Below, piece by piece: positions 3,001 through 57,900 of a stretch of DNA of 64,000 nt. Origin of the DNA: Ascidia mentula (Eukaryota > Chordata > Ascidiacea > Phlebobranchia > Ascidiidae). Under the pieces are notes generated by a model, which was given only the letters and a program-made list of their open reading frames with translations, was not told where the DNA came from and did not search any database. The stretch is from positions 12,772,001 to 12,836,000 of the forward strand of contig OX387198.1 of the NCBI GenBank assembly GCA_947561715.1, given 5' to 3'. Position numbers and translations under genes: made by a program. Every line of letters starts with the position of its first letter. Position 1 is the stretch's first letter.

Positions 3001-4333
3001 CTAACACTCTAGAACGACCGTCGGCATTTGCAACTTCATACCTGGCTGAAAATATGTGCTGGATCAAAGGACATTCGCTTTACTTTTCCTTTCTTCTGCC
3101 TTTCGGAATCATGCTGATATTCAATATAGTGATGTTTGTGATTGTGATCAGGAAACTTGTGTGGGGAAGAAAACAAGTTGTAAGTAATAAAAATGTCCGG
3201 GTCAAGATATCCACTTTGCTGTGACTATACAATTACTCCCATCCTTTGGGCATCAAACTAGAGCAACCATCCGTAGAAAACAAGATAGAAAAACTATGAC
3301 ATAGCTAAACCAATAGTGCCGTCAGGCCCCGTTTCACAATAAATCTTTTGTTCACATTTACCCACACGTTCTATTTCATATATCACTCCTATTTCATGAA
3401 AGTGTTAAATATGGCCACAAAGGTACCACAAAGTGGAAATCTGTGTGCCTGCTAATGTCGAATCTAGCACAGAGCCGCAGTCAACAGCTGCACTGATGAG
3501 ACCTCACAGGTCGAAACAATGTGTACACCCTATTTGCAGCCTTCAATGATTATTATGGCTTTTTTGCACATACGTTTAATATGATTTTCTAAACCTCACG
3601 TAATTGATGAAGTTCAATCTGATCAACGTGTAATTGCAGTGGGATCCAACAAGGAAAAAATCCTCCCCAACACACCATATCCAAATTGCTATCACTACAG
3701 CAACCACTCTTGGTCTCAGCTGGTTTTTCGCATTCTTCATGATGCTTTCATCGAGTCCGGGATATCTTACTGCCATGAGTTGGCTTTTCTCCTTAACCGC
3801 AGGACTGCAGGTAAGGCAAACTTTTTTCTTTCACACAAAATTATTTTTGCATACTAAGTAGCGCTTTCTCATACATTATGGGGTTTCAGTTTCATTCCAA
3901 ACGTACTATCACAAACTTTCTTAAAAAATATTTTAATGGCCGAAACCAATAAAGAAAACTTGCCTGCTCCAAAACTGTGGATTTGCCGCGCGTTTATGCG
4001 TTTGTATTCAAATGCCTCGCTTTGCCTGCAGTTTATATAACAAACCCAAAATAATGCATCAATCTGCAGCTAAAAATAACAAGATATAAACCTCGTAAAT
4101 AGCACCGTTTTTAGGAACTAAAATCCATTTTTCAAAAACTTATTTGTTTTCAGGGTGTGGGCATCTTTCTGTTCACGATTGTAAGAAAGAACGACATTCA
4201 GATCTTAGTACGCACATTCTTCGAAGAACATGGATGTTCTTGGTGTGGTGTGCCCGCTCAGCCTCCGGCAACACTACGAAGCCATGAGCCCAAATCCAGC
4301 GTCCCCAGCCGTTCACATTCGACCCTGGCCTGA
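9..4333 (+). CDS. Adhesion G-protein-coupled receptor, copy A (5' end outside window)
   Basis: Membrane receptor of the adhesion GPCR family. Exons: 9-81, 217-339, 607-740, 813-962, 1023-1223, 1348-1557, 1627-1752, 1819-1956, 2075-2184, 2302-2572, 2659-2800, 3013-3179, 3640-3810, 4154-4333; all phases agree and 731 codons plus a stop are visible. Exon 217-339 is Cys-rich (CVCEHTTTDC). Exons 813-1956 form a GAIN-like region ending in a textbook GPS (CVFW, W, GC, CRCNHLTNF; residues about 340-385), so autocleavage at HL/T would free a tethered agonist starting TNFAMLV. Seven hydrophobic segments follow (2075-4200): TM3 near HYFLLCVWCWMSVYAYF, TM6 near LGLSWFFAFFM. The tail is short and Ser/Pro-rich. 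The signal peptide and N-terminus lie upstream of the window. Ligand and exact subfamily are unknown; an ADGRG-like group is possible. Confidence 0.9.
1819..1956 (+). other. GPS (GPCR proteolysis site) exon of copy A
   Basis: This 46-codon exon carries the whole GPS motif: four Cys and two Trp at the canonical spacing, then NHLTNFAML. In adhesion GPCRs the receptor cleaves itself between the Leu and Thr of this motif. Copy B keeps only the second half of this exon. Confidence 0.9.
3487..3540 (+). ncRNA. Type I hammerhead ribozyme, copy A (intronic)
   Basis: In the intron between the TM5 and TM6 exons, on the sense strand. Stem I is GCTGCA (3487-3492) with TGCAGC (3535-3540), a perfect 6-bp pairing. 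The core CTGATGA (3493-3499) is followed by stem II GACCT-CAC-AGGTC (3500-3512) and GAAA (3513-3516). Stem III is a hairpin around GTGTACAC, leading to an NUH site at 3532-3534. Two stem III pairs are broken here, while the paralog at 11197 has them intact. The core sequence and stem order match established type I hammerheads. Current activity is doubtful. Confidence 0.8.
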
Positions 4334-9566: not shown

Positions 9567-12036
9567 CGTCTACGGACGGCTGCTTCGTAATACCGAATAG
9601 TGACCCGCCGCAATGCAGATGCAACCATCTCACCAATTTTGCAATGCTAGTGGTATTATAAAATTGCTTTGTTGTAAAATTGCTTTGGAAATTGGTAAAA
9701 TCAATTTTAAGGAACACTTTTCCGTTGTAGTTGGGTTAGTCACATTACAGTTATTTTACATATTTTACAGCATATCTACGACGTTCAACCACACATTTCC
9801 CTGCAAATAGTGACTTACGTGCGCGCCTCGCTCTCTATCTTGTGCCTCGTAATAACATTCGTTATCCTCATTGCTTTCAAGTAAGTCACATTATATGAGA
9901 AAGTGCACATTTTTTACTGCAACGTGATGACAGAAATTCTGGATTGTCTTGGTATATTTATTGCGGTAATTTGTATTCAAATATTTTAACTCTATAGGGA
10001 TATTAGAGCTTCCAGCTCGCTGCGCTTTTTCTTATACATGAAAACATGTTCAATACACAGAGATATAAGAAAACGACGACCGATACAAGTTCTCATGAAC
10101 ATATGCGCCTTACTTATCGTTGTGTTCATACTATTCATCGCCGGAGCTGACAATCGCGAAAACGAGTCTCAATGTGCAGCCGTCGCATTCCTGCTTCACT
10201 ATTTCTTACTCTGCGTATGGTGTTGGATGTCTGTGTACGCCTACTTTCTATACATGGCAGTTGTTAAGGTGGGCAACGCAGTGTAAAAATATCAGCACAG
10301 AATTGAATACATGATCTGCATAATTGCGTATCTGCGAAAATGAACAACATTTTGTGTGTATTTAGGTATTTTATTCAAACAACAGCCGTTTTCTCAAAAT
10401 TGGAGCTGGGTTGTCGTACGGCATTCCAGCAGTGATTGCTTCGATCAACGCAATCGCCATAGAGGCAACAAAACAACCATCCTTGGAATCTCCTGTGTAT
10501 GGACAAGGTTAGAGAAAAATTTTGTACAGCACGGGTCTGCATTTCTGTTTATTTAAATGAGCAATTTTAGTCAAAAATTGTAAAGTGTGTGATATGCTTG
10601 ATAATGTAAGGAAGGGAATTACATATAGATTTAACCAAAATAATTGTCTTGCATTGGCCCGTTTTCTCTCGTAATATTTAGAATAGGATGTTTTGTGTAA
10701 CTCTATAATTTCTAACACTTTAGAACGACCGTCGGCATTCGCAACTTCATACCTGGCTGAAAATATGTGCTGGATCAAAGGACATTCGCTTTACTTTTCC
10801 TTCCTTCTGCCTTTCGGAATCATGCTGATATTCAATATAGTGATGTTTGTGATTGTGATCAGGAAACTTGTGTGGGGAAGAAAACAAGTTGTAAGTAATA
10901 AAAACCTCCCCGGTCAAGATTTCCACTATGTTGTGACTATACAATCACTCCCATCCGTTGGGCATCAAACTAGATCAACCATCCGTAGAAAACAAGATGG
11001 AAAAAATATTACCAAGCAATAGCTAAGCCAATAGTGCCGTCACGCATCATGTCACAATAAATCTTTTGTTCACATTTACCCACCGTATTACTATTTCATA
11101 TTTCACTCCTATTCCATGAAAGTGTTTAATATGACCACAAAGTGGAAATCTGTGTGTTTGCTAATGTCGAATCTAGCACAGAGCCGCAGTCAACAGCTGA
11201 TGAGACCTCACAGGTCGAAACAGTGTGTACACCCTGTTTGCAGCCTTCAATGATTATTATAGCTTTTTTGCACATACGCCTAATATGATTTTCTAAACCT
11301 CACGTAATTAATGAAGTTTAATCTGATCAACGTGTAATTGCAGTCGGATGCAACAAGGAAAACATCCTTCCCAACACATCATACCCAAATTGCCATCACT
11401 ACAGCAACCACTCTTGGTCTCAGCTGGTTTTTCGCATTCTTCATGATGCTTTCATCGAGTCCGGGATATCTTACTGCCATGAGTTGGCTTTTCTCCTTAA
11501 CCGCAGGACTGCAGGTAAGGCAAACTTTTTTCTTTCATACAAAATTATTTTTGCATACTAAGTAGCGCTTTCTCATACATTATGGGGTTTCAGTTTCATT
11601 CCAAACGTACTATCACAAACTTTCTTTAAAAAATATTTTATTGGCCGAACCCAATAAAGAAAACTTGCCTGCAAAACTGTGGATTTGCCGCGTGTTTGTG
11701 TGTTTGTATTCAAATGCCTCGCTTTGCCTGCAGTTTATATAACAAACCTAAAATAATACATCAATCTGCAGCTAAAAATAACAAGATATAAAACCTCGTA
11801 AATAGCACCGTTTTTAGGAACTCAAATCCATTTTTCAAGCACTTATTTGTTTTCAGGGTGTGGGCATCTTTCTGTTCACGATTGTAAGAAAGAACGACAT
11901 TCAGATCTTAGTGCGCACATTCTTCGAAGAACACGGATGTTCTTGGTGTGGTGTGCCCGCTCAGCCTCCGGCAACACTACGAAGCCATGAGCCCAAATCC
12001 AGCGTCCCCAGCCGTTCACATTCGACCCTGGCCTGA
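9567..12036 (+). CDS. Adhesion GPCR copy B, seven-helix part only
   Basis: Paralog of the receptor at 9-4333, starting inside the GPS exon. Exon equivalents: up to 9652 (GPS remnant), 9771-9880, 9998-10268, 10366-10507, 10724-10890, 11344-11514, 11857-12036. All splice sites and frames are intact and every helix is present. The GAIN region, first half of the GPS and acceptor of the GPS exon are missing. No in-frame ATG precedes the remnant; the first is at 9644, inside the tethered-agonist sequence (NFAML). Differences from copy A include Lys to Asn in the GPS and Trp to Ser at the TM6 exon start. It may be a truncated receptor, a set of exons used by an unseen upstream exon, or a young pseudogene; intact frames argue against long decay. 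Confidence 0.6.
11197..11244 (+). ncRNA. Type I hammerhead ribozyme, copy B (intronic)
   Basis: Paralog of 3487-3540 at the same intron position. Core CTGATGA (11197-11203), stem II GACCT-CAC-AGGTC and GAAA are intact. Stem III ACAG/CTGT pairs fully around the GTG..CAC hairpin, giving a GTT cleavage triplet at 11236-11238, followed by TGCAGC. Five bases of the stem I 5' strand are missing (sequence reads CAACAG before the core), so stem I pairs poorly. Damage is complementary to that of copy A. Confidence 0.75.
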
Positions 12037-15797: not shown

Positions 15798-18700
15798 CCT
15801 GATCGAGCTAAACGATAACTAAACAAGCTGAACAAAAAATTTACAGATTTTCAGAATGCTCATTCACATTGAGGGCTACGAAAAACTGACAAAGACGTTC
15901 CCAAAATAGCATTCACACTAAAATTGTAGTCGTTTACTATATTTTAATGTTGATAGGCATAAGTTATAGGTACAGAATCGTCAGGCAAATGTAACCTTAG
16001 AATCTAACTGCATACACATAGCCTATGACCAAATCTATCCTTCAAACACACTTGTGCCACTGCTGAGTCTCACTAGAATCTCCTTTCTAGATAAATATTT
16101 ACCTTCCAACCGGATGGGCGCTATTCATCAGTTATTCCACAAATACTGTAGTTCTGATATAGGACATATACCAAAGATCTTAATTTTTAAAATAGCACAA
16201 GCAACACACCCATCGTTCGCAATACGATGCCTATACAATACAATTATTATGTTATTTATATCACAAACATGTAAAACAATACTGTCATGTTATTTGTATG
16301 ACAAAAATTAAAAAATATTATAATATCATGGCTCTTTTTCTTCTAAAAGACTGCCATGATCCACAATAAATGATCACGCAAATAATGATTTTCTCATCCA
16401 AGCGATACTGACTGCCAGCAGTGTTTGGCGCCGCGGTGTCTGTAAACCTTCGTTCGTACCATTAATGTTGATCCTTGAAGCAAATACTTGCTACAGACGC
16501 TGGTTGAAGACCGATAAGCAATAGACAAAATGTAGTTGGGTGCTGACACACAAGAAGTAGCCTGTTTATAATTTTACAGTGGCCGTTATCATTTCTAGCG
16601 TGCTAATCCAACAGCGCAATTTGATTTTCAGGGGATTCTTTTACGTAGTTTGTTCCACAAAAACAAAAATAAATTCGAAAATGCAAATGAAAAATTTATA
16701 TATGCAACTACTTGTCCGTAATTTTTGAGGACGCCATGGATAAATTGGATCAATGTGAAGACATGTATCACTGGATGTAAAAAACGTAAACACGAAGTCC
16801 TTTTACCATTTTTTTGCTTTGGACTTCTTTAGTGGAACTCCATCTGTGATGACTAATTGCACAATACTAGTTTGTATTTATTTTCTGTTCGTCACTATGT
16901 TCTTTCAAGCTTCTTTCTTTTCTATACGCTATTAAACTGTCTATATTTCTGTTGGGTGATATTTCTACCGGTTGATGTGTTTTGTTCAAGAAATCGCTGG
17001 TCACTGCAAGCTGATTTTTATACTACAGCGGCGCAAGCTCACTTGTCTTCCTGTGCCACTAGGCGACTACCGTGCGATTTGGGTTGTCCCATACCAGGGC
17101 TTCTCTAACTATATTGGTCTCGACTCCTAAATCCAGTTTAATCCTTTTTCGTTCGCACGTATATAACCAAACATAGAAATCACACTGGGGTGGAAGTAGA
17201 TGGGTTTTTAACCGGACTATTTGTTGAACTGTATTATCTAACTATACCTGTTATTTGTAGACGTTATTGACGAGTATTTCAATCGATGTAAGGTTTAGCT
17301 ATATCTGAACAGTCGCATTGGAACGCGTCAGACTCAGTGATTAGCGTTAAATGCAACGTCCTGACTCTTAAATATCTTTATCCTGTATTGTTAGGTGTTG
17401 GATAAATAAGTACATTAACTGCCCACAGCCATCTATGGCGTGTTTTGTTAGAAGATACACAAGGGATTATTTAAAAATATCTTTTTTTGGTTCGTTTCTT
17501 GGGTTAAATATGCAAAAATATAGAAAAGCTTTTACATTACTTACAAACACCGGTAGGAAGCGTATGATTGTGCTGCTTAATATCTCTTTATATTGTGTAC
17601 AATAAATACATCTTGGTCTATGAATATGTGTAAATCCAAACCGCTAACTTGCGTTGTTTTCCTAGATTGACACTGCCTATGATGTAAGATTTGCAGCTGT
17701 TAAGGCAATGTAACAAATAAACACCAAATTCCTGTGACGTCACTATAATGCCTGGCATATTCAAAAAGCATTTAAGCGTGTGAGTGGATATATGTGGCCT
17801 GTATCATGTCAGCTAACGAAATTAAATGCTTGCGGGATTCTGTAGCACCACGCACGTTTCCCAACTTAATTCTTCACATATTTGGAACGCAGACGGACCG
17901 AAGGCTGCAGACGGAGTTAGGCATTCCTGCAGAGCTCGCACAGTCTTTTTTATCATTGTAACTTGTTAAATACCCGTTCGCACTTTTCTCTGTCAATTCT
18001 CTGTTATTCACTCTGCCACCCAACTAGTCTCGGATACTTTAAGCAAATGACACGCGCCATAAGTTACTCGCTCAGTCACTATAACGCGCTTGGGACAATT
18101 TGAAATTGCGCCACCTGATTTTGCAAACGTGTGTTTTAATTAATAAATGAGCCTGCTATTATTCTCGCCATCGCGCTGTTACGTACGCACGTTCTTTTGG
18201 TAGTTAATTCAGTCACGTGTAAAACTCTATTTAAACGCGCTTGGAACAATATGTTACGCCACCTGATTTGCAAACGAGTGTTTAAATTAATAAGTCTGCT
18301 CTAGTATTAACAGCAAGAACACGCAAGCAGACTAAAAGCCTCAACACAGCAGCAACCGGCCGAAATCAATTGGTATGCTGCAATACTTTGAAAAACCGAC
18401 CTTTTAGAAAAAAGATTCGGCGGTTGAAACAAGAGTGGGCTGTAAGTTCACTGGCTTCGCAGCCAAGTTGTGTCAAAGCACCTTCAAATAGTAGTGCAAT
18501 CAAAATCATTGTCTTTTGGGAAAACGTTTTTTCATTTAAATACAGAAAAGGGTACGCAATGGGCGGGGCAATTGCAACTGATTAGAAACGCCCACAAATT
18601 TGATGAATCCCAAGTAATAGGTATGCAAGTGTGTCATGCAATGTAAAGTCATGATTACAATCGCACAAGACAGACTAACAAGAATGCAAAGTCATTTAAT

Positions 18701-19027
18701 GAAACATTTATTCAGTAATGTTTTGAATATTAAATTTAGGTTCACAGCATGAACGACGGTTTTTGTAATGCCTTTTTCAAACAATTTAATTAGTTTAAAA
18801 ATTCAATGGGAACAAAAGATGATCTAACTCCACTTGCAATTGATTGAATTATGAAGTAGGTATTTGTTTTTTGTACATCATTTTAAGTGCAAAGTGGTTA
18901 CACATGTAAACATTTGCATCTTTAGTTTGGTATATACATATTTTAGTGAGATACATACAAGAGAACATTGGACAAAGTAGGAAACACATCAACCATTGCA
19001 CAAATTCTTTAACACTTTGGTTAAGAT
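15798..19027. other. Intergenic region between the two duplications
   Basis: 15798-16866 is the upstream flank of sulfotransferase B. 16867-17226 shows nothing recognisable. From about 17227 the first CHAC2 duplication unit begins; 17.2-19.0 kb is the 3' flank of CHAC2 copy 1. A short open frame at 18370-18585 is shared with 22553-22798 but differs by length changes that are not multiples of three, so it is not called as coding. Confidence 0.6.
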
Positions 19028-19893
19028 CTACATTTTCACAATAACCTGGTTTAACACGAGTTTCTCAAGGTTAAAAAGATGAACATCATTATCCTCAGGT
19101 ATATTTTCACGAACATATTTTGCCAAATTGAGCAAATACTCAGTATTTTTGCCACTAGGGCCTACTGAGGAAACTATCACTTCTGCTATTTCCTGATCAT
19201 CAGCAGGACCAGCATAGTTAGGATTGCCAGGGTTTCCAATGTAGAGCATTAAATCAAATGGAGATGTGTTATGATCTCGTGGGTGGAATGTAACTGTAAC
19301 TGCAGAGTATCGCTTCTCTCTATAATCTAATTGGTTTCTCACATTGTTGACTTGATCTTCTGGTATCTTGTAAGCCACACCCCACACTATGGAGTTTGCA
19401 TCGGGTGTAATGGTGACAACCCTTCCTGGCTAAAACATGTCATAATTAAATAACTGTAAAAGTAATCACATGCTTATATACTACTTTTCTTTTTAAGCAC
19501 TCAATGATACCAAACAATTATGACATGTCATATAGCTTGTTTTTAATTAATTTCAATGTATGAGCCGTTATAAGTTTCAAAGCACCAACAAGCTATGGGG
19601 AAGTATTTACAAAAAAAAACAAATATTAAGTTTCACTGGAGTTTGACAATTTTCTTGGGCTTTGTAGTTTGCACCATTCTTTACAAGGTAGAGAGCTAAA
19701 TACAATGTGACTTAAAAATCAAAGTCTACATCCAGTCTATACCTAAGTACATTATTACCTTTCCGGGTATGCCTCTGTGATCAGTGCTGTGTTGCCAGAA
19801 TCGTCTTTTGTATCCCTTTATGTAACCAATCACCTGGTGTTCATATGGGAAGTCAGTTTTCCACATGAGTGAACCATACCCAAACACCCACAT
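19028..19893 (-). CDS. CHAC2: Glutathione-specific gamma-glutamylcyclotransferase 2, copy 1
   Basis: Cytosolic ChaC-family enzyme that splits glutathione into 5-oxoproline and Cys-Gly. Two exons, 19759-19893 and 19028-19429, phase 0 join, 178 residues (human CHAC2 has 184). The start [12 protein letters not shown] holds the family's YGSL substrate-binding motif; then [44 protein letters not shown] and [11 protein letters not shown] follow the human order. The catalytic Glu is in YREKRY (about residue 83). One oddity: the family has EKGGY here, and copy 2 keeps it, whereas this copy has EKRY, one residue shorter and without the glycine pair next to the catalytic Glu. It could be altered or weakened in activity. 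Confidence 0.92.
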
Positions 19894-20715
19894 GCTGGAT
19901 CAGTACTGAGTGAACAGTGTTATAAAAAAAATAAATAATGCACACGGTTGTTAACTGCAAAAGAGCAACAATATAGGCAAGCTGGGCCATGAAATAACAT
20001 AGGAAAAACTGTTATAGTCATCATACCAAAGTAACTATAGCGCTCGACAAAACTTTCTGACAAGGCTGAAATAGCCTGCTGTGGTGCTGTGTTTTGACTG
20101 TCCAATGTCCATAGCCACAGCAATCTGTCCCTTTTTTGTAATATATTGTTTCATAGTTTTGATTTTTGCGTTGTGCCAAAACGCACAAAACAGCTGAGAT
20201 GACGGTGCACATTTCTTAGACCTAGGAATGACGCAGCATAAACTGATAGCGCTGTCATCACTTCAATTTTCCTGGGAGAATGTTCTAAAGTTCTAAATCT
20301 ATTTCAAACCAAGCATGATTAGAAAGAGCACGAAAACACAAATGATTTTTTCGTGGCCCTAAGCACTTACAAAAATTAGGCTATGGTACTCAGTTTACAG
20401 ACTCATTGCTTGCTAAAAAAAATGCCAGCTTTATTGAAGGTTGTGTGTTTGCATCATATTCCTTCGCAACATCATACATACCGAAAGGTTCTACGTAACT
20501 AACAAACAAAGGACCACGATCAGCTCTATATTTCACGTCACAAACACGCTTACATTTTCATGATCACCAAGATAGCATAGTTACGTTTTCCTGCTAGAAT
20601 ATTAATGTTCCAATAAATCAGTTATTTTAGTTCAGGCCTTCTGCCATCCATGCTTCTACAGAGATAAAATCATAACAAATCCTGTACAAGCAATCAGCCA
20701 ATAATGATCAGTGAA
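19894..20715. other. Upstream flank of CHAC2 copy 1
   Basis: Likely promoter and 5' UTR of the minus-strand CHAC2 gene; alignable with 24245-25315. It includes the uninterrupted target site (near 20550-20570) of the MITE found at 24904 in the other unit. No coding exon supported. Confidence 0.55.
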
Positions 20716-21548
20716 CTGCAGAGAGTTGTGCACACTGCTTCGACCTACCAGGTTGCAGAGAATTGTGCACACTGCTTTGACTTACCAGCAAGTTGCAGAA
20801 AGTGATGCACACTTCCTCGACCTACCAGGTTGCAGAGAGTTGGGCACACTGCTTCGACCTACCAGCAGATTGCAGAGAATTGTGCACACTTCCTCGACCC
20901 ACCAGGTTGCAGAGAGTGGGGCACACTGCTTCGACCTACCAGGTTGCAGACAATTGTGCACACTGCTTCGACCTACCTGGTTGCAGAGATTTGTGCACAC
21001 TGCTTCGACCTACCTGGTTGCAGACAATTGTGCACACTGCTTCGACCCACCAGATTGCAGAGAATTGTGCACACTTCCTCGACCTACCAGGTTGCAGAGA
21101 GTGGGGCACACTGCTTCGACCTACCAGGTTGCAGAGAATTGTGCACACTGCTTCGACCTACCAGGTTGCAGAGAATTGTGCACACTGCTTCGACCTACCA
21201 GCAGATTGCAGAGAATTGTGCACACTTCCTCGACCTACCAGGTTGCAGAGAGTGGGGCACACTGCTTCGACCTACCAGGTTGCAGAGAATTGTGCACACT
21301 GCTTCGACCTACCAGGTTGCAGAGATTTGTGCACACTGCTTCGACCTACCAGGTTGCAGACAATTGTGCACACTGCTTCGACCTACCAGGTTGCAGAGAT
21401 TTGTGCACACTGCTTCGACCTACCAGGTTGCAGACAATTGTGCACACTGCTTCGACATACCAGGTTGCAGACAATTGTGCACACTGCTTCGACCTACCAG
21501 GTTCCAGAGAGTGGTGCACATTGCTTCGACCTACCAGGTTGCAGAGAC
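20716..21548 (-). repeat. 37-bp minisatellite made of core-less hammerhead units
   Basis: About 22 tandem units of 37 bp (a few 39-40 bp). On the minus strand a unit reads TGCA, ACCT-GGT-AGGT, CGAAGC, AGTGTGCACA, ATTCTC, then the next TGCA. This follows the hammerhead at 11197 segment by segment: stem I strand, stem II hairpin, GAA(A/G)C, stem III hairpin with the same AGTGTG(C/T)ACA, cleavage region, stem I strand; but CTGATGAG is absent. Some units end GTC before TGCA, a canonical cleavage triplet. A block of variant units near 20850-20950 recurs at about 21180-21280, so there is higher-order structure. Three forward frames stay open only because the 37-mer has few stops; this is not coding. 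It lies exactly at the joint of the CHAC2 duplication. Confidence 0.85.
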
Positions 21549-23367
21549 TAACCATGCCTGTTATTTGTAGACGTTATTGACGAGTATTTTAATCGATGTA
21601 AGGTTTAGCAGGATCTGAACAGTCGCATTGGAACGCGTCAGACTCAGCGATTAGCGTTAAATGCAACAATTTACAAAAATATAGAAAACCTATTACATTA
21701 CTTACAAACACGGATAGAAATGATTTTATTGCTTAATACCTCTTTATATTGTGTACATTAAAAACATTTTGATCTAAGATTATGTGTAAATCCAAACCGC
21801 TAACTTACGTTGTTTTCCTGGACTTATCATGCATGGTGTAAGATCTGCAGCTGTTATGGAAATGTAACAAATAAATACCAAATTCCTGTGACGTCACTAC
21901 AATGTCTGGCATATTCAAAAACATTTTAAACGTGTGAGTGGACATATGTGGCCTGTATCATGTTAGCTAACGAAATTAATCGCTTGTGGGATACTGTAGC
22001 ACCACGCACGTTTCCCAACTTAATTCTTCACATATTTGGAACACAGACGGACCGAAGGCTGTAGACGGATTTGGGCTTTCCAGAATAACTCGCACAGTGT
22101 TCTTTTTTTCATTGTAACTTGTTAAACACCTGTACGCACATTTCTCTGTCGATTCTCTGTTATTCACACTGCCACCCAACTAGTCTCGGATACTTTAAGA
22201 TAATGACGCGCACCTAAAGTTACTCGCTTAGTCACTAACGTGCTTGGGACAATTTAAAGTTACGCCACCTGATTTTGCAAACGTGTGTTTCAATTAATAA
22301 ATAAGCCTGCTATTGTTCTCGCCATCGCGCTGTTACGTACGCACGTTCTTTTGGCAGTTAATTGACTGTAATTCAGTCACTTGGTATAATCTAGTTAAAC
22401 GCGCTTGGAACGATTTAAAGTTACGCCACCTGTTTTTGCAAACGTGTTTTTCAATTCATAAATAAGTCTGCTCTCGGAGTCGAATTTAGCATCAACAGCA
22501 AGAACACGCAAACAGACTTAGCCTCAACACAGCAGCAGCCGGCCGAAATGAATTGGTACGCTGCAATACTTTGAAAAACCGACCTTTGAGAAAAAAAATT
22601 CGACTACAATTTTGTTTTTTGTTGAAACAAAAGTGGGCTGTAAGTTCACTGGAGCCAAGTTGTATCAAAGCACCTTCAAATCGTAGTGAAATCAAAACCA
22701 TTGTCTTTTGGAAAAACGGTTTACAATTTAAATACAGAAAAAAATGTGTAATGGGCGCGGCAATTGCAATTGATGCCCACAAATTTAATGAATCCTAAGT
22801 AATAGGTATAGAAGTGTTTGTCATGCAATGTAAAGTCACGATTACAATCGCACAAGACAGTTTCAGTTTAGATACAAGGATTCGTCGAATTGGTGGGCGT
22901 TTCCAATTAGTTGCAATTAGCACGCCCACATACGTTCCAAACGTTTGTATTGGGTTTCCTATATAGCGTCTCACGCTCCTTTAACAAAGCCCTCCAACAA
23001 GAATGCAAAGTCATTTAATGAAACATTTATTCAGTAATGTTTTGAATATTTAATTTAGGTTCACAGCATGAAATACGTTTTTGTAATGCCTAATTCAAAC
23101 AATTTAATTTGTTTAAAAATCCAATGGGAATAAAAATTAATCATACAAATGCAAAAAAATCTAACTCCACTTGCAATTTATTGCATTATGAAGTAGGTAT
23201 CAAGTTTGTGTACATCATATTAGGTGCAAAGTGGTTACACATGTGGAGATTTGCATCTTTAGTTTGGTATATACATATTTTAAATGAGATACATACAAGA
23301 AAACACTGGACAAAGTAGGAAAACACATCAACCATTGCACAAACTCTTCAAACACTTTGGTTAAAAC
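21549..23367. other. 3' flank of CHAC2 copy 2
   Basis: No coding exon supported. Paralogous to 17.2-19.0 kb. It contains inverted GTGGGCG/CGCCCAC repeats (see 22745-22935). Confidence 0.55.
22745..22935. repeat. Inverted repeat pair with GTGGGCGT/ACGCCCAC hairpins
   Basis: 22745-22800 (GGGCGCGGCAATTGCAATTG then GCCCAC and GAATCC) recurs inverted at 22873-22935, which itself folds as GTGGGCGT ... ACGCCCAC. The second arm lies in about 137 bp absent from the paralogous site in unit 1, so it was inserted or copied there after the duplication. Confidence 0.45.
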
Positions 23368-24244
23368 TTACATTTTCACAGTAACCTGGTTTAACACGAG
23401 TTTCTCAAGGTTAAAAAGATGAACATCATTATCCTCAGGTATATTTTCACGAACATATTTTGCCAAATTAAGTAAATACTCAGTATTTTTACCACTAGGG
23501 CCTACTGAAGAAACTATCACTTCTGCTATTTCCTGATCATCAGCAGGACCAGCATAGTTAGGATTGCCAGGGTTTCCAATGTAGAGCATCAACTCAAATG
23601 GAGATGTGTTATGATCTCGTGGGTGGAATGTAACAGTGACTGCAGAATATCCACCCTTCTCTCTGTAATCTAAGTGGTTTCTCACATTGTTGACTTGGTC
23701 TTCTGGTATCTTGTAAGCCACACCCCACACTATGGAGTTTGCATCTGGTGTAAGGGTGACAACCCTTCCTGGCTGAAAACATATCATAATTACATAACTG
23801 TAAAAACAATCACATGCTTATACTACTTTTCTTTCAAGCACTCAATGATAGCGAACAATTATGCCATTTCACATAGCTTGTTTTTAGCCAATGTAAGTGT
23901 ATGGGCCAGTAGAAGTTTTAAAGCAACAATAAGCTATGGGTAAGTATTCACAAAAAAACAAACATTAACTTTTTACTGGGGTTTGACAATTTTTTCGGGA
24001 AATGTGCGTTGTGTAGTTTGCACCCTTCTTTACAAGGTAGAGAGCTAAATACAATGTGACTAAAAAATCACAAAGTCTACATCCAGTCTATACCTAAGTA
24101 CATTATTACCTTTCCGGGTATGCCTCTGTGATCAGTGCTGTGTTGCCAGAATCGTCTTTTGTACCCCTTTATGTAACCAATCACCTGGTGTTCATATGGA
24201 AAGTCAGTTTTCCACATGAGTGAACCATACCCAAACACCCACAT
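23368..24244 (-). CDS. CHAC2: Glutathione-specific gamma-glutamylcyclotransferase 2, copy 2
   Basis: Paralog of the gene at 19028-19893; exons 24110-24244 and 23368-23772, 179 residues. Exon 1 encodes the same 45 residues as copy 1. It keeps the family-standard YREKGGY around the catalytic Glu, plus YGSL, HRGIPGKPGRVV and [15 protein letters not shown], so it is the better candidate for the conserved enzyme. Cytosolic glutathione breakdown is the expected role. Confidence 0.93.
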
Positions 24245-24903
24245 GCTGGATCAGTACTGAGTCAACAGTGTTATAAAAAAATATAAATAATGCACACGGT
24301 TGTTAACCGGGAGGTAAAGCTGCAAAAGAGCAACAGTATAGGCAAGCTGGGCCATGAAATAACATAGGAAAAACTGTTATAGTCATACCAAAGTAACTTA
24401 GCGCGCGACAAAGCTTTCTGACAAAGCTGAAGAAACCTGCCGTCTTTTAACTGTCCAATCTCCATAGCAACACCAATCTGTCCCTTTTTTGTCATACGTT
24501 GCTTCATGGTTTTGATTTTTGCGTAATGACAGAATGCACAAAACAGCTGAGATGACGGTGCACATTTCTTACCTTTGGAATGACACAGCATAAACAACGC
24601 CGTCATCACTTCAATTTTCAAGTTTCCTGAGGGAAAGTTCCAAATCTATTTCAAACCAAATGGTTAGAGAAAAGCACGAAAACACAAATGATTTTTTCGT
24701 GACCATCGGCACTTTCAAAAATTAGGTTATGGTGCTCACTTTACAGACCCATTGTTTACTAAAAAAATGGTAGCTTTATTGAAGGTTGTGTGTTTGCATC
24801 ATATCCCTTCGCAACCACAACGACATACCGAATGGCACTACGTAACCAACATACAAAGAGCCGAAATCGGCCCTATTCACGTCATAAACACGCTTACATT
24901 TTC

Positions 24904-25161
24904 GGAAAATACGACTACACCGGGTCACAAAGTTTTTTCCAAACTTAATCCACAAATAAGTATGTGTAAAACAGAAATCTGTGCGAATTTTAATGATTAG
25001 GCGTAAACAGACCCACTGCCTGTTATTTTTGTTTATAAATTTGAGTTCAAATACTACACGAAATCGTATCGTTAATATTCGTGCAGATTTCTATGTTACA
25101 CAGGCTTATATGTGGATCAAGTTCGGAAAAAACTTAGTGACCCGGTGTAAAAGTATCTTCC
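24904..25161. mobile_element. MITE with long terminal inverted repeats, Mutator-like
   Basis: 258 bp. The left end reads GGAAAATACGACTACACCGG; the inverted right end reads GGAAGATACTTTTACACCGG. The inverted repeats extend about 75 bp. It is flanked by the 9-bp direct repeat TACATTTTC (24895-24903 and 25162-25170). The paralogous site in unit 1 (about 20550-20570) has a single TACATTTTC and no insert. GG..CC ends and a 9-bp target duplication fit the Mutator superfamily. No transposase is present. Confidence 0.85.
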
Positions 25162-25315
25162 TACATTTTCATGATCACTAAGATAGCATGGTTACGTTGT
25201 TGTGATGATTAATGTTCTAATAAATCAGTTACTTTCTTCTGCCATCCATATGCTTCTACAGAGATAAAATCATAACAAATTCTAAAGAACCAATGAGCCA
25301 ATAACGATCAGTGAA

Positions 25316-25353
25316 CTGCAGAGTTATGCACACTGCTTTTCATCAGTGCAGCT
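25316..25353 (-). ncRNA. Decayed hammerhead copy, relative of the minisatellite
   Basis: Minus strand: AGCTGCA, CTGATGA, then AAAGCAGTGTGCATAACT and CTGCAG. It keeps the stem I strand and catalytic core but has lost stem II and part of GAAA. It lies at the position paralogous to the start of the minisatellite; both follow GATCAGTGAACTGCAGAG on the plus strand. Confidence 0.7.
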
Positions 25354-25460
25354 GATGGTGACTGACGCGTTTGGTACCTAACGGATGGACTGCAAAGTCA
25401 CTAAAAAGTGGAATATTATCTGTCTGCTTAATTAGCCGACAAGACCTTCGTCAGTAACCG

Positions 25461-25511
25461 GCTGCGCTGATTAGACCTAATGGCCCTAAACAGAGTGTAA
25501 CTGTCTGCAAC
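25461..25511 (+). ncRNA. Degenerate type I hammerhead plus partial second unit
   Basis: GCTGCG, CTGATTAG (core with one change), ACCTAATGGCCC, TAAAC in place of GAAAC, stem III ACAG-AGTGTAA-CTGT, GTC, TGCAAC. The preceding CAGTAACCG resembles the CAGTCACC flank seen before the other copies. After it, 25506-25527 continues TGCAACTCACAGGTCGTAAG, like the start of a core-less second unit. Confidence 0.55.
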
Positions 25512-27108
25512 TCACAGGTCGTAAGCTCCTTTTGTCAACGCAAGTATTAATCATACATGTCCCAATTTTTTGTCGTCGGCAACGTGTCTGATGTCACGCA
25601 TATTGTTTTGGTGTTTCCGACAGTTTTCTGTGTTGCAACTTATACGCGACTGACTACAGAATCGTTGAATTTGGTCAGAGTTTCGACGCACAGGCCCTGA
25701 ATTTTGTGTATGTTTCCGAACTTCTTTTCACAACACAATTTTACAGTTGGTACGCCTGCGGTATATTCTTTGTGGTCATGAAAAGGAATTGTTCTTTTCT
25801 AAATAGCTTCGACATACATAAATGCCATTTATCCCCAAATGGGAAACAACTTGTCCAAACATTTATTCAAATAAGAGCATCTGCCTTATTCAATAACAAC
25901 TCCTACACTTACCTACAGCCGAAAACCAACAGCCAACAGACCAAGCAAAAAAGCGGTCGCACGTTCGCCTGTGTATGCACAATACAATATGACGTAGCAA
26001 TACAAAAACAGGATGCAAGAAGTCGGAACTTTCACGATCAGAAACAAAAAAGCACACAAGCATTTAACTAGGGCAAATCAGAAGCAAAACATTGGGTGAT
26101 GTTTATGGTGAATTGCAAGCATTGGTTTTAGCTTGTCTTCAGTGGTCATGTTGAGTGTGTTGCATTTGAAAATGCCAAATTATTCTTATTGTAAACATTG
26201 CACGAACTTGGGGCTTACAGTCAAGTTCGGTATTTTTTGTGGTAAACAACTGGAAAGTCATGACGATAAAGGTTGAACCGTAACAAAGGCAAAATAGTAT
26301 AGGTCAGGAAAATAAACGTGCGTTAACGTTTGCCCCACGAATAACAAAAAGCAGAGTTCTGAAATTGGCACTGTTCCATGAAATTGACAAACTTTTTCAA
26401 AACGTATGCTACCAGCATCTAACCAAAGTACAAAACGCGGATTGGAAATTTGACACTTGCGCTATTCACGCTTGGCGACTTCGCACACCAAAGGCATTCT
26501 TATTTTTTAGCAGCATGCAAGCAACAGTTACGGTCATCTGTAATATATCACAGAAAGCAGTCGACGCAAAGCATTTCCTTAAAAGAGCGTAGGACTTTGG
26601 ACACTTGGTGGCACCAACGATCCAGTTATCACAACGCAATTGGTACTATGTAATTTCCGTTTCATCGAGTAAAATCACAGCGCGCAAGACTTACCGGGGG
26701 TAAAAACTTGTGAAAAAAGTGCAATTGCCTTCGAGAGGGAGGGTGTTTCTGGGAGAGCAAGAAGTGCATGCTGCTAGGAGACGTGGATGAAGCGACGAAC
26801 AGGCGGAACAATGTGTAAAGGTAAACGTTGTGAACAGGTATGAAAGGATAGTCGGCTTTAGGATACCTCCCGGAGTTCTAAAAAACGTGGATACAGCAGA
26901 ACATATAGTGGTAAAGGGTGCGGGGCGGGGAAGTACCATAGGCGGAACAGGATGGAAAACGAAACGTACGAGAAGGCAGTAAAAAATTTAACAAAAAATA
27001 GTCCCGTGAGGACCGCGGGCACCAGACGTAGTTTAAGGTAACTCACGTCGCGTTCAAATTCACGTACAGAGAAAATAGCACCCGATCTGGATTTGGCGCC
27101 AACGACGT

Positions 27109-45800: not shown

Positions 45801-48404
45801 TAAAAAAGTAGTAAAGTTATGTGAGCTAAAGACAGATGGCAACTGTTTCGACCTATTCGTTCTTATCAGTGCAGCTTGGTGACTGTTGTAGCCGATCTTG
45901 CACGTCAAACGACCAAGCAAACACTTTCTGCCCACCTGCCTGTGGCTCACATAATTCATTGGCTTCCAATATTTATTATAGTGAAATTGATCAAAAACAG
46001 TAAATCATTCTTGAATATAGTTTTTGGGAAGACCTAAGCGACTATAAAAAGGTTCACCTTGGACGTTGATGTAAGCTTTCCTGGAGCGCACTTTATCGAG
46101 TGGATCTTGACATTCGTAAACTCCGTCGTCGTCGATTGTGACGTTCTCAATTCGCAAATTCTGTTCACCTAAAGGAGAAAACCGTTTATACAAATTACAG
46201 CATGTACATTTCCATATCACATTGTTAGCGAGACCATTAGGGTCGTAACCTTGTCATAAAATATTTCGTTTTTTGCCCAAAATGCTGTAATTATCACCAG
46301 TTAAATGTAAAGTTACGTATGTATTGGTAGCAGATTTAGTGGAAATGGGGGTTATAACAAGGTAATTGTTACCGATTGTGTTGGTGTGTTGCAAGCTGTA
46401 TCTGTTTATTGGCGAGTATCCGTCTATACCAAATATGGCGAAGCCGTCTTTCGTCCACGTGACAGTATTCTGTAACATATTTCACATTAGACAAGCGAAA
46501 AAATTATGAAAATCTTCGGAACAATACAATTTAAATGTTTTTTCTTAGATGAAATTGCTACGGGGTTGCATTTATGGCACAGTGAAGTCTTTGGAACTCG
46601 AAATTAAAGTTTAATGATGAATTTGAAATACCAGACGCCCGATGAACAGGTTTTTGTGGAAGAATAGCGTATCTGCTAATCTAAAATAAATGCAATTCCC
46701 TTACAAGAAAAACCATCAGCAACCAAACACATAGTCAAAATAACCTTTTCCCAAACAGGCTGCTTTAGACCAAAATCTCCACACGTTTACCTGGTAGTTT
46801 TCAATGTGACACTGAATGACAATCTGCCTCGTTCCGGCGAAGACGGTCTCGTTTGAAGGCTGGCGGAGAAAACGAACCGGGGCTGATTCCGCGAGCATTT
46901 CTAATGCAAACAAACAATAGATAACGACATCACATGGGTAATTATTATTAAGGTGGACAATGCCGATTACCGTATGTCCCTTTGCAGTGCATTAATTCTC
47001 TACGACAGGTTTACAGCGCACAGGGGAGTTCGGCCTATTAAAGATTAGGATGATCCTGGCCCAAATTTTTAAGATTAAGTGCCTTCAAGTTACAACGACG
47101 CAAAACGCGCCAAGATTGGTGGAACGTGCTCGTTTTGAAATAGGTCACCAATGCTTTTGGGCGTATGGTCTCGTGATATCACCAACAAACTTGTTTTAAA
47201 TATTTAAGTAAATTTATTTTAATGAATTGTACAAGCTGATCCAAAAACTAGAGCGGCAAATCAAAGAGAAAAGAAAATGGATTTCACAGTGGCGATCGAC
47301 GGAATAAAAGCAGTGCGTCAAACGTCGCGTTACTATGGAGACCCGCCGGAACTTCGTAAGTCAAAAATCCCGTCAACAATTATGAAATACGGTCGGGCCG
47401 CGGGGATCCCGCTGCCATTCGGCCGAAATAAAAAGGCCTGAAAAAATGGTGGCGTTGCGAGATGTTCGTCGCCACGAAGTCCTTTGTTGGCAGTGAACAA
47501 AACAAACACGCGAGACCGGGCACTGGCCGGCCCATGGCCCCCAGCGTCAGCGGGCGCTGTGTCTAGTTTGGCGGCTTCATAAAAGCAACATGAAAATGTG
47601 GCCCTGCAACGTGTTTCGTCTTAATTAAGGCGTAGTAAAAAGCAACGCTCCGCCTTGCGATGGATGAAGAATTACGGCGAACGTTTGGGCGTTTCCTGAA
47701 CAGTTGATTGGGTAATTTACCATCGGCCACACTAACCAACCACAATTCTCACTGTATTAGGTTTACGTCCAGTTTTACAATCTTAAGTCTATCTTATTAG
47801 TGACGTTTTAATAATCTCGTGGCAAAGTGCTACAACAACGATATTAAAACAAACTTCAGTTCGCAAACATGAAAAAACTTTTTCTTTATTTGAAAAAATT
47901 CAGGGTGGCTTTGTTTCTGGCAACACAATCCAGTATTGTAAACTAGCGAAAGCGGCATAATTTTTAACTCCCATTATATAAGCCAAGCTACCCCACTGGC
48001 AAACTCCCATGCGCACACCCAGCACAAAGACGCATCTTATGTAATTCGGCGCATGTTTGTTTGCATATTAAACGTAAACATCGCATTACGCCAGCGTGGG
48101 GGCGCCTGATAAGAAGCATTCCAGCTTGAATCTAATATAAGAAGACGATGGTTCACTGAGCTATGATGTCATACCCACATCGCGCGCTTCTGATAAACGG
48201 ATTACGTACTTATGTTTAAATCCAGTTTTGACGATTGCATCGTATCCTGTTTCAAAACTTTACTCAATAGGGAAGTTTGGTTAAAAAGGAAATTAACGAA
48301 AAAACGAGGGCGTTAATTAACGTGATTTCCCTACCTTGGAAGCTCCAAAGCAGCAAGCTGATGAAAAAGCTCCATTGTATATTCCCCCTCAGCCCGTTTG
48401 GCAT
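33803..48404 (-). CDS. NPHS1: Nephrin (Ig-superfamily adhesion receptor)
   Basis: Single-pass adhesion protein; in vertebrates it builds the podocyte slit diaphragm, its insect kin act in myoblast and nephrocyte contacts. Thirty exons with agreeing phases, 1,623 residues: 48335-48404, 46791-46900, 46373-46469, 46058-46168, 45446-45622, 44820-44957, 44270-44391, 42650-42815, 42232-42346, 41972-42143, 41742-41870, 41351-41584, 41160-41278, 40675-40839, 40037-40449, 39595-39716, 39296-39458, 38760-38940, 38413-38576, 38222-38342, 37771-37964, 37661-37693, 37409-37537, 36918-37040, 36512-36618, 36322-36430, 35826-36110, 35005-35318, 34393-34614, 33803-34069. Signal peptide 1-23; nine Ig-like modules to about 989, the seventh (about 645-779) without the Cys pair, like nephrin's spacer; FN3 about 990-1094 (LSWHAGFDGGAP); TM 1113-1136; 487-residue tail ending GTLFV, a possible class II PDZ ligand. 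The domain order is that of nephrin, not Kirrel. Confidence 0.93.
34175..34290 (-). repeat. tRNA-like SINE remnant
   Basis: Minus strand carries a perfect T-arm/box B, GGGTTCGAATCCC (34197-34209), with 3' sequence ATCAGTGTAGTAGCCACC. No complete tRNA cloverleaf or clear A box was found upstream, so this looks like a tRNA-derived SINE piece in the last nephrin intron rather than a tRNA gene. Confidence 0.4.
43190..43380. promoter_or_regulatory. Candidate intronic enhancer with 20-bp palindrome
   Basis: Inside the 1.4-kb nephrin intron 42816-44269. TGAGATATCGCGATATCTCA (43301-43320) is a perfect palindrome holding two AGATAT sites; CGATAA lies just left and TTATCG just right. Two CACGTG E-boxes sit at 43200 and 43280, and CTTATC and AGATAG follow near 43375. 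Dense, symmetric GATA-type and E-box sites suggest a regulatory module. Function is inferred only. Confidence 0.4.
44639..44760. mobile_element. Foldback MITE, copy 1
   Basis: Starts AAGCCAAAGATAAGATGTTG and ends with the approximate inverse (CAGCATCTTAGCTTTGG). Its first 50 bases match 63235-63285 closely, so the two are one family. In a nephrin intron. Confidence 0.45.
45824..45876 (-). ncRNA. Type I hammerhead ribozyme, nephrin intron
   Basis: Minus strand, the sense strand of nephrin, between exons 46058-46168 and 45446-45622. AGCTGCA (stem I), CTGATAA (core with one change), GAACGAATAGGTC (stem II region), GAAA, stem III ACAG-TTGCCAT-CTGT, cleavage triplet GTC, TTTAGCT (stem I, one mismatch and one wobble). 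The flank CAGTCACC before stem I is shared with 25353-25364. Probably weakened but clearly of the same family. Confidence 0.7.
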
Positions 48405-54936: not shown

Positions 54937-57900
54937 ATGGATGCACATTCCATGTCAAAACTGACAATGGCATCAGTAAAAAGACCAGTTACAGCAGGAA
55001 CAAAGAAACGACAGACTTTTTTGGATGAAAGCCTTGAGCAAGCAGGCAGTGCCTTGTCACTCGAAACTCAGGTATGATCCAAATAAAGTGTTATCAGAAG
55101 TGATATGATACTGGGCTATTTATGCACAAGGTATTACGATGTGTATTTATAGGCAAAGCAATTTACAAATAGACTGCTTTTGGTACAATGCAAACATAAA
55201 ACATTACAGGTCGAAACAGTGGCCATCTGTCTGCAGCTTACCCAATTGATGTTATTGGCTCTACTTTGCTTATAAAACATTCTATTGTAAACAACATTTT
55301 GATAAATTTGCGTTGTAATTTTTATTGTGCAGGATGCCTATGACCCACTGTATGTTCACCAACCGGAGCCACCAAATTTTAAGTCCTATTCAAACTCAGA
55401 ACCCATTGCTTTAAAAGCCTTCGACTCAAACAGGGAAACTCTGACTGCTGAGTTTTATTCTAAACTTCAAAATCTCAAAAAAGAGCACAAAAAGACTCTG
55501 AAGTTGCTTTCACAACTTTATGAGGATTCTAATTCGAGGTATGATAACAGCATGGACAGGTTTGGAGTAGTGTCTTTTATTTGAACTCTCTATATAGCAT
55601 GTATGTATGTTGAGCATAATAATATGTTAAATATTGTCTGCTCTTATTGGTTTAACAACTGAAATTTGTATATTGAACCATGTTAAATTGTTGTGACCTT
55701 TGTAGGCAGTGCAATCACTCTGCAAGAAACCACCAGGAAGCCATAAAGATCAAACGCAGCATGTGTGGCAGTCACCAAAATCGCTATTATGATGATGATG
55801 AGTCTGACGATGAACCAATTCAAATTCCAATGGATTCCTCAAGAATTATGAATTCCCAATCACATGAGCCAAGATACCAGGACTCACAATCTGATGGCTC
55901 ACAAGACACTGATGATGAGGAAAAAAGTGCCATGTCATCCTATGCTGAGTCAACCGAAGATGTGGTGTCCAGGATGTGGGAAGACTTTACACTGGAAAGT
56001 TACCTTGAGAAAAGAAGCACAAAGGACCAACTAAAAAGTAAGAGGAACGTAAGACCGAGAAGTGCACCACCCAAGAAAAAAGAATGGTCACCAATTATTA
56101 CCATTCCAAAACCCTTTAAGATGACATTGAGAGAGGAAGAAAAGAAGGGAAAATCTCACACTAGGTTGGGTTTGTTTATATTGATGACTAATGCAGTTAA
56201 ATGCTCAATCATACAGTATGTTACTTTCAACCGCTTGCAGAGTATATTATGCATCAAATAATATTAGCTGATAAAAAAAAACTCCAGAATTTCAGTACAT
56301 CTTTGACCTCAATATTTAATCATTTTTGTCACAAAAAACTAAAAGTGTGTTTTAACAAAAAATGTCTTACAATCCTCAAAACAAACAGAAACAGTAAAAT
56401 CCATGTAACTGCTGAGAAATTCATTTTTCTACATACAAACGACGTTGCTGTTTGTGTTGAGGATTTTTACAATCCTCCTAGTTTAAATGAGTTTCATATC
56501 CATACTGCAGTTCATCACATGAAATTTCGCTACATGAGAGAGAGAGAAGGGAAAAGGAGGAAGATGAACTTGGTTTTCGAATAAGACCTCGAGAACCCCC
56601 TGCTCATATTTACCTTCCCCTATTCGATGAGTTTAGAGAAAGACAGGAGCAACGATCAAGATTTAATCGCGAAAATGCAATTTCAACTCTAGTTGCCCTA
56701 CAGAAACCTTTTTCTTTCGCTGAACGGGATGAGGAAAAACGGAAAGAAAGGGTTTGTTATACTTTTACTTGTATGATTTTTGTTACAGTTTCGCCTCATT
56801 TCTCTTCAATTATTAGTATCCATAATTAATTAGGAACCATTTGTGATATTGATCATTTTCTGTACAGACGTAATTGCTTTACCAAACGTTGACAATGTGA
56901 CTTTAAATTTAGGAGCATAAAAAAAGACAAGAAGAATTACAGAAACTAAGGAACATTAAGAAGATGTCAAACTTTGAAGCTAGTCCTGTTCCTTATAGTG
57001 TCCATGACCCTACTGTGTCAGATCGCATCATTGAGGAGGGATTATACAGAAAGATTAAAAAGAAAATGAGGTCAGTGAAAAATTGTATTTGCCTGTTCAT
57101 CGATTTATGTTGTTTGGAAAGATGTTACATACAAAAAAATACATTTTTTATGACTTTTTTGTTGCTGGTAAGTACTAATGTCACTTAAAAAAACCTGGGT
57201 TGTGTATTTGTTTTTAAAACCACTTTGTAGTGTTTATAATTGTCATTTGTTAATCACATACCTGTTCTGGCATGTACAACAATGGTATCAACAATAGTTA
57301 ATCAATTGTATGTGTTTGTGGTGTGTGTTGTAGAACACATTGTAACCATAAGAACACAGAGTGAAAGGAAGTTTGAAACTTACCTTGTGTATAAGGTTAC
57401 CTACAAACTTTTCAATGAGGATTAATTGAGTGTAATTGTTAGGGGTATAGTTGGCAGATGGAGACCAAACATTCAGTTTAGTGTTTTTTCAACAACAAAA
57501 CAAAAACACCTGCAAGGGTTTTGAAGTTTTATTGTCAACACTGTGTCTGAATGCAACTTTCACCCAAACAAAAATGTGGGCAAAAGTATACCGTTGAAGC
57601 TTAACGCCTTTAAATGTCTTAGCTTTTTGGATTGTTGGCACAGAATAAATCATCTTAGTCGGCCACCACACATTACTAATTCCAGTCATCTTTATGAAAA
57701 TTTGTGCTCATAATGTGTGTAATAATGTGTTTACACTCAGGTCAGAAGACCTCATGCGGTCCTCTGCTCTTCCACCTCGCATGCAAGCTCACGAAGTTAT
57801 GGCGGGCGAGAAGAGACGCGTTTGGCAACGCGAAGTGGACAGAACTACAGCTCATTCGTTCCGCCCCGTAACACACGACGTTCCAGACTTCGATGCTCTG

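Follow-up and report, generated by a model that had tools for sequence, protein, structure and literature searches.

In type I hammerhead ribozymes, stems I and II are joined by the core strand CUGANGA, and a GAA strand and an NUH cleavage site come ahead of stem I. Tandem repeats bearing hammerhead sequence make up satellites of newts and schistosomes. Cervera and de la Pena (2020, PMC7229834) describe the metazoan non-LTR retrozymes as small type I hammerhead repeats in tandem arrangement, with target duplications exceeding 4 bp. In the pDo500 satellite of Dolichopoda cave crickets, the repeats span 463–505 bp and include a 49-bp hammerhead for which the available part of the account gives very few core substitutions; in one sequence, vat3, a 308-bp deletion has removed the hammerhead region (PMC2837043). 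The genome paper on Didemnum vexillum reports, in the part available, 9 type I hammerhead loci. Literature searches, judged by titles and abstract openings, returned no on-topic paper on a hammerhead-ribozyme minisatellite and none on retrozymes in ascidians.

Here we describe a minisatellite of 37-bp units in a window of 64,000 nucleotides from the ascidian Ascidia mentula (assembly GCA_947561715.1, contig OX387198.1, positions 12,772,001 to 12,836,000). The account that we prefer, with a probability of about 0.8, is that the array is a catalytically dead minisatellite that grew within the hammerhead of an old retrozyme-like element, through a duplication break followed by slippage or exchange. 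The observations that carry this account are the homology of the units to the hammerhead, the absence of the core strand, an element tail at one end of the array, a parent element at the paralogous place and a duplication junction at the other end. The features of the window are collected in Table 1.

Table 1. Hammerhead-related and duplicated features of the window
Feature	Position	Strand	Basis
Type I hammerhead copy of the dispersed family; both TGCA boxes and the core present, stem III partly broken	3484..3546	+	
Dispersed hammerhead copy akin to the one at 3484; core kept, 5' TGCA box of stem I missing	11187..11250	+	
Tandem duplication, copy 1 (~4 kb); ChaC matches at 19031-19429 and 19729-19899	17238..20740	-	
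Element tail right after the last array unit	20683..20716	-	identity search
Minisatellite of 22 units, each with hammerhead stem II, GAA strand, stem III region and stem I TGCA; no CTGATGAG	20717..21547	-	
Host flank on the 5' side of the array as read on the minus strand; 94% identity with 17238-17357	21548..21667		
Tandem duplication, copy 2 (~4 kb); ChaC matches at 23371-23817 and 24080-24250	21548..25338	-	
Parent element at the paralogous place: inverted hammerhead, spacer, direct hammerhead, similar tail, host flank	25281..25516	-	
Hammerhead in the 25.3-kb parent element	25311-25354	-	
Hammerhead in the 25.3-kb parent element, inverted relative to it	25459-25516	+	
Dispersed hammerhead copy	45819..45878	-	
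Dispersed hammerhead copy, degraded	55184..55243	+	

Organization of the array

Tandem Repeats Finder resolves the minus-strand array at 20717–21547 into 22.2 copies of a 37-bp period and detects a second period, 336 bp repeated 2.4 times, in the same span. Cut at the TGCA boxes, the array yields 22 head-to-tail units, 19 of 37 bp and three of 40 bp (nos. 10, 19 and 21), with the consensus ACCTGGTAGGTCGAAGCAGTGTGCACAATTCTCTGCA; this is the organization of a minisatellite, whose units range from about 10 to 100 bp. A partial unit, TCTCTGCA, stands at the array start, ahead of the first ACCT. The mean pairwise identity among the units is 0.889 (the lowest value is 0.725), with peaks at lags of 9 (0.915) and 11 units (0.925), so that blocks of units seem to have been copied after the single units had diverged. 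The motif CGAA is present in 17 of the units and is replaced by CGAG in units 9, 13, 18 and 20 and by CAAA in unit 21. The sequence-only reading of this DNA had noted GTC before TGCA in some units; GTC indeed precedes the last TGCA in 5 of the 22, and the others mostly have CTC. An unrelated minisatellite with 16-bp units (GGGTATTGAACTTGTT, 12.8 copies) is located elsewhere in the window, at 27856–28061.

Homology of the units to a dispersed hammerhead family

The proposal that the 37-bp unit follows a hammerhead piece by piece is borne out by a profile search. A profile built from 28 dispersed copies outside the window (a 31-row alignment minus its three window rows) identifies all 22 units with scores of 18.9–42.5 bits (E 4.4e-5 to 1.9e-12), whereas 20 dinucleotide-shuffled windows peak at 3.8–8.5 bits. 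This shuffle test led us to reject chance likeness, and the tail match and the paralogous parent element described below further leave an unrelated minisatellite with a fortuitous resemblance to the hammerhead vanishingly improbable, even though the array has no Rfam hammerhead match up to E 10. Judged by their sequences, the array and the dispersed hammerhead family are homologous, irrespective of the Rfam and covariation results.

The matches of the array units begin at profile position 17, 18 or 20, that is, at or after the last base of CTGATGAG, which occupies positions 10–17. The strand CTGATGAG is thus missing from 22 of 22 units, as the sequence-only reading had maintained, and a CUGANGA strand between stems I and II is found in none of them (0 of 22). 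Because this strand is missing throughout, the array should not self-cleave, given what is known of the ribozyme. The same reading had explained the unit length as a full unit minus eight nucleotides. The arithmetic holds for the copy L032, where 45 nt less 8 gives 37. The copy at 11197, with which the unit had been compared piece by piece, has no 5' TGCA box, unlike its relative at 3484; by our own count, the TGCA-to-TGCA spacing is 46 nt in the copy at 3484 and 45 nt in L032. In favour of the preferred account, the GAAGC and GNT-loop variants are shared by dispersed relatives.

The profile also matches six dispersed hammerhead copies in the window, the number counted previously; its matches cover 3485–3544 (+), 11196–11248 (+), 25311–25354 (-), 25459–25516 (+), 45820–45877 (-) and 55197–55240 (+). 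A covariance model of all 31 rows produces 22 window matches up to E 1, 15 of them within the array; the rest are the six dispersed copies, three of which are themselves rows of the model, and one weak antisense match at 11220–11239. The copies at 3484 and 11187 lie in similar sequence. The window further contains a second tandem duplication (segments 7090–9537 and 14387–16866), in which 15001–16866 is 94% identical to 7704–9537; identical 161-aa open frames are present at 7090 and 14387, and the frame at 7090 matches Sulfotransfer_2.

The parent family

Across the 195.8-Mb genome, a stem II-to-stem III pattern allowing up to 3 mismatches has 1780 matches (reversed control, 2), and the core-bearing pattern CTGATGAGACCTNNNAGGTCGAAACA, also with up to 3 mismatches, has 4889 (reversed control, 1). 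Several subfamilies, with the loops TAC, TTT and GAT/GGT, are apparent, and some copies form inverted pairs a few hundred base pairs apart. The typical dispersed copy reads CAGCTGCA CTGATGAG ACCT-TAC-AGGT CGAA ACAG...CTGTC TGCAGCTC, a hammerhead layout that we take to be type I, with GUC as the cleavage site; the dispersed copies show all parts of it, namely CTGATGAG, GACCT/AGGTC, GAAA, stem III, GTC and AGCTGCA/TGCAGCT. In a sample of 76 distinct copies from 80 loci (L001–L020 and L063–L122, with L127–L133 left out), the core is exact in 44, has at most 2 mismatches in 63 and is lost in 13, these last being single copies with at least 3 mismatches in the 8 nt before ACCT.

The Rfam and covariation results speak against the hammerhead reading. 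At or above the gathering score, the Rfam models detect no hammerhead in the window and none in 16 loci. The comparison of the array with Rfam that the sequence-only reading had suggested came back empty, with no hammerhead model matching any unit up to E 10, and the single hammerhead match in the window up to that value is Hammerhead_1 at 11191–11239, with 19.2 bits against a gathering score of 34. Among seven loci, the best hammerhead match is to the type III model (28.6 bits, L020), and the best sub-threshold match is that of Hammerhead_3 across the dimer L135 (35.8 bits, E 8.6e-5); the young arrays L125 and L126 give no hammerhead match up to E 0.1. On palindromic copies, microRNA models rival the hammerhead scores (34.4 bits for L015 and 33.0 for L135). 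Covariation of the stems in 31 copies does not exceed that of shuffles; in the same copies, 86.8% of the stem cells are paired, compared with 20.7–36.5% when the 3' partners are slid by 1–3 columns. Given the weak Rfam scores and the absence of covariation, the hammerhead reading is based on the known core consensus and the paired stems.

The one locus of the family that was closely examined is a young tandem array (L125, G000:C1:3332100-3334700; 347-2129) of 285-bp monomers repeated 5.9 times with 99% matches. The direct copies keep the core (6 of 6), as does the inverted first copy, and the array is flanked by 12-bp repeats that, read from the sequence, resemble a target duplication. Shorter retrozyme-like runs are present in L126. 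Thus, at this one locus, tandem type I repeats within the range of 150–450 bp are combined with an apparent target duplication longer than 4 bp. The monomer array would be a good candidate for a source of circular RNA, and the parent family fits the metazoan non-LTR retrozymes as described in the available part of PMC7229834.

The array edges and the ChaC gene duplication

The array has a ChaC gene on either side and lies about 0.8 kb upstream of the first exon that matches ChaC in copy 1 of a tandem duplication; its two edges differ in nature. On one side, the 34 nt directly after the last unit match the tails of element copies at 30 positions in L034, 29 in L031, 28 in the 25.3-kb paralogue, 27 in L041 and 26 in L033; the maximum over 10 block shuffles (191,419 bases) is 23 of 34. 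On the other side, the best match of the adjacent 40 nt to any fetched element copy is 24 of 40. Here, the sequences 21548–21667 and 17238–17357 diverge exactly at the array edge (...GTTAG|). In the minus-strand reading, the end of copy 2, ...AACAGGCATGGTTAG, runs directly into the array, and the end of copy 1, ...AACAGGTATAGTTAG, continues into other sequence.

A self-comparison of the 15–28 kb region against the window reveals four pairs of duplicated segments: 17238–17357 and 21548–21667 (94% identity), 17507–18673 and 21668–22860 (84%), 18677–20559 and 22996–24903 (88%), and 20551–20740 and 25162–25338 (82%), the last of which extends 24 bp into the last array unit. The paralogous place thus reached is occupied by the parent element. 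In its direct hammerhead, CTGATGA is kept and stem II is lost; the element is palindromic, with CAGCTGCACTGATGA abutting AAAGCAGTGTGCATAACTCTGCAGTTCACTG. Among the best candidates scored, the host flank was found in two places only, the array and this paralogue. Taken together, the tail, the paralogous element and the junction positions place the array at the duplication joint, inside a former hammerhead element.

Beside the 25.3-kb element, there is an imperfect palindrome of ~258 bp (24904–25161), which shares 68% identity with its reverse complement. In copy 1 of the duplication, the sequence continues without this palindrome, and the flanking matches overlap by 9 bp (20551–20559), as if a small inverted-repeat element had inserted.

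Origin of the array

In the proposed sequence of events, the tandem duplication of ~4 kb would first break within the hammerhead at a point downstream of CTGATGAG, or within an array that had already begun there. A duplication with its 5' end in the hammerhead would leave the second copy without the core and whatever else lies 5' of the break. The repeated piece would then have stem II at one end and the 3' strand of stem I at the other, with the core outside it; slippage or unequal exchange between the TGCA boxes could multiply this 37-bp piece, and later exchanges could copy blocks of several units. Under this scenario, the core would be missing from the units because the repeated piece never held it. 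A tandem duplication of ACCT...TGCA would by itself yield the joint TGCA|ACCT; the core was therefore probably outside the repeated segment, and a separate 8-nt deletion is unnecessary.

The sequence-only reading had placed loss of the core first and slippage second. Its hammerhead origin and the missing core stand, whereas a stand-alone deletion of CTGATGAG does not fare as well, given that the array edge is the duplication breakpoint; the order of events is better explained by that breakpoint. The view that a small deletion removed exactly CTGATGAG and the core-less unit was then amplified by TGCA-box slippage, with the gene duplication being incidental, draws on the unit length, which equals that of the 45-nt copy less 8 nt, and on the existence of core-less single copies. 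In addition to the 13 of 76 noted above, one of which (L089) reads TGCAC|ACCT, an exact TGCA|ACCT is found at C70:6058851 (L040), outside the sample. Such a deletion, however, leaves the base-exact coincidence of the array edge with the duplication junction to chance and invokes an event for a joint that arises automatically from the ACCT...TGCA duplication, which makes it rather unlikely.

The genome-wide distribution of the joint and of the breaks is as follows. The joint CTGCA|ACCTNNNAGGTCGAANCA has 11 exact matches in the genome, 10 within the array and 1 elsewhere, so that this exact search found no dispersed progenitor family sharing it. Allowing up to 2 mismatches raises the number to 123 (control, 4), and many among those listed are intact-core variants such as ATGAAACCT. 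In the 76 copies, which were picked via a pattern starting with ACCT, the break upstream of ACCT is within 8 nt in 18, at 9–20 nt in 13 and farther away in 45; with copies picked in this way, the counts do not bear on whether breaks cluster near ACCT.

A simple break at ACCT with subsequent slippage does not produce the partial first unit TCTCTGCA. The start of the array is easiest to understand if the duplication was preceded by a short array, which copy 2 then lost, although other paths are possible, among them a further deletion as the source of the partial unit. The loss of stem II in the 25.3-kb paralogue fits loss of an array there but proves nothing.

Alternatively, the array could have formed at insertion, by template switching of a reverse transcriptase between the TGCA boxes of retrozyme RNA, without any later events at the DNA level. 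The related array L125, 285 bp x 5.9 between 12-bp repeats with the first copy inverted, would be compatible with such a process, but there the whole 285-bp monomer is repeated, core included, and the diverged units of the present array (mean identity 0.889), with variants shared by blocks, are what turnover at the DNA level would be expected to produce. We consider this route improbable.

It is more improbable still that the array is kept for a function, be it an RNA or protein product or an interaction with active hammerheads as their target or decoy. For most of its length, the array is free of stops in all three plus-strand frames (290, 256 and 254 codons), and GTC|TGCA is retained in 5 of 22 units. 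The open frames, however, follow from a stop-free unit, with a chance of ~0.07 that none of the 17 distinct substitutions creates a stop, and none of the three frames contains a Pfam family at the cut-off; four weak matches fall below it, the best being DNA_pol_A_exoN (E 1.4e-4, 22.6 against 23.5 bits). Coding in these frames, stop-free by composition, was accordingly rejected. The single-strand DNA fold of the unit does not exceed that of shuffles (z -0.13), and a DNA hairpin of the unit as the driver of the array was rejected as well. No function of the array is indicated or needed.

Other small hammerhead-derived repeats

Arrays of short units that keep the core had been anticipated, but the pattern GCACTGATGAGN{24,54}GCACTGATGAG, which covers units of 35–65 bp, has 0 matches in the genome; its reversed control has 32, taken to be an unrelated repeat. 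Neither is there a second array of the GGTCGAANCANTGTG type, as 10 of 10 exact paired-unit matches fall within the array described here. The exact GGTCGAAACA pair occurs at two places in the genome, L134 and L135; all of these patterns are exact, and diverged arrays could escape them. L135 (G000:C2:16067587-16067651; 1483-1593) is a perfect repeat of 55 bp x 2 that keeps CTGATGAG and is preceded by an inverted hammerhead; from the sub-gathering type III score across its joint, it might form a dimeric hammerhead. L134 (G000:C1:19825132-19825189; 1485-1579) is a perfect repeat of 48 bp x 2 built of a 5'-truncated hammerhead piece, with CAAATAAG at the core position and no clear core.

The two dimers may represent early stages of array growth. 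A broader generalization, namely that hammerhead retrozymes recurrently seed tiny satellites, by breaks at the base of stem II and amplification of the piece from stem II to stem I, and that the palindromic element also supplied the break of the ChaC duplication, is doubtful. If true, three stages would be visible, namely L135 (core kept), L134 (no clear core) and the array of 22 copies.

Comparison with known systems

With both of its ends explained, the array would be a clear case of a mobile ribozyme decaying to plain satellite DNA, neat rather than surprising to specialists. It also implies that hammerhead-like tandem repeats detected in genome scans need not be ribozymes. In addition, the analysis brings to light a family of thousands of hammerheads in a tunicate genome, compared with the 9 loci given in the available part of the Didemnum vexillum paper. 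In line with a tunicate, GH6 scores above the Pfam cut-off at 2 places of this genome and in 0 of 14 control genomes; among animals, GH6 genes are not known outside the tunicates.

As far as the available parts of the respective papers go, the parent family and the array relate differently to the described systems. The likeness to retrozymes lies in small type I repeats, tandem copies and target duplication, and the 285-bp monomers of L125 with their intact core fit this description; the retrozyme unit, however, is the whole 150–450-bp repeat with a complete ribozyme, whereas the array consists of a 37-bp core-less part and thus is not itself a retrozyme (PMC7229834). Like the pDo500 satellite, the array is a tandem repeat containing hammerhead sequence, but one without the core in 22 of 22 units (PMC2837043). 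Penelope-like elements, with their minimal type I hammerheads, share the short helices and the tandem organization (PMC7761336, PMC11167929). Among satellites born from pieces of mobile elements, a counterpart is TIR-220 of the Tetris element in Drosophila virilis, where, as here, an internal piece of a non-autonomous element has been tandemly amplified; in the present case, the amplified piece is a fragment of a ribozyme, and the amplification is found at one 0.83-kb locus (PMC4079207).
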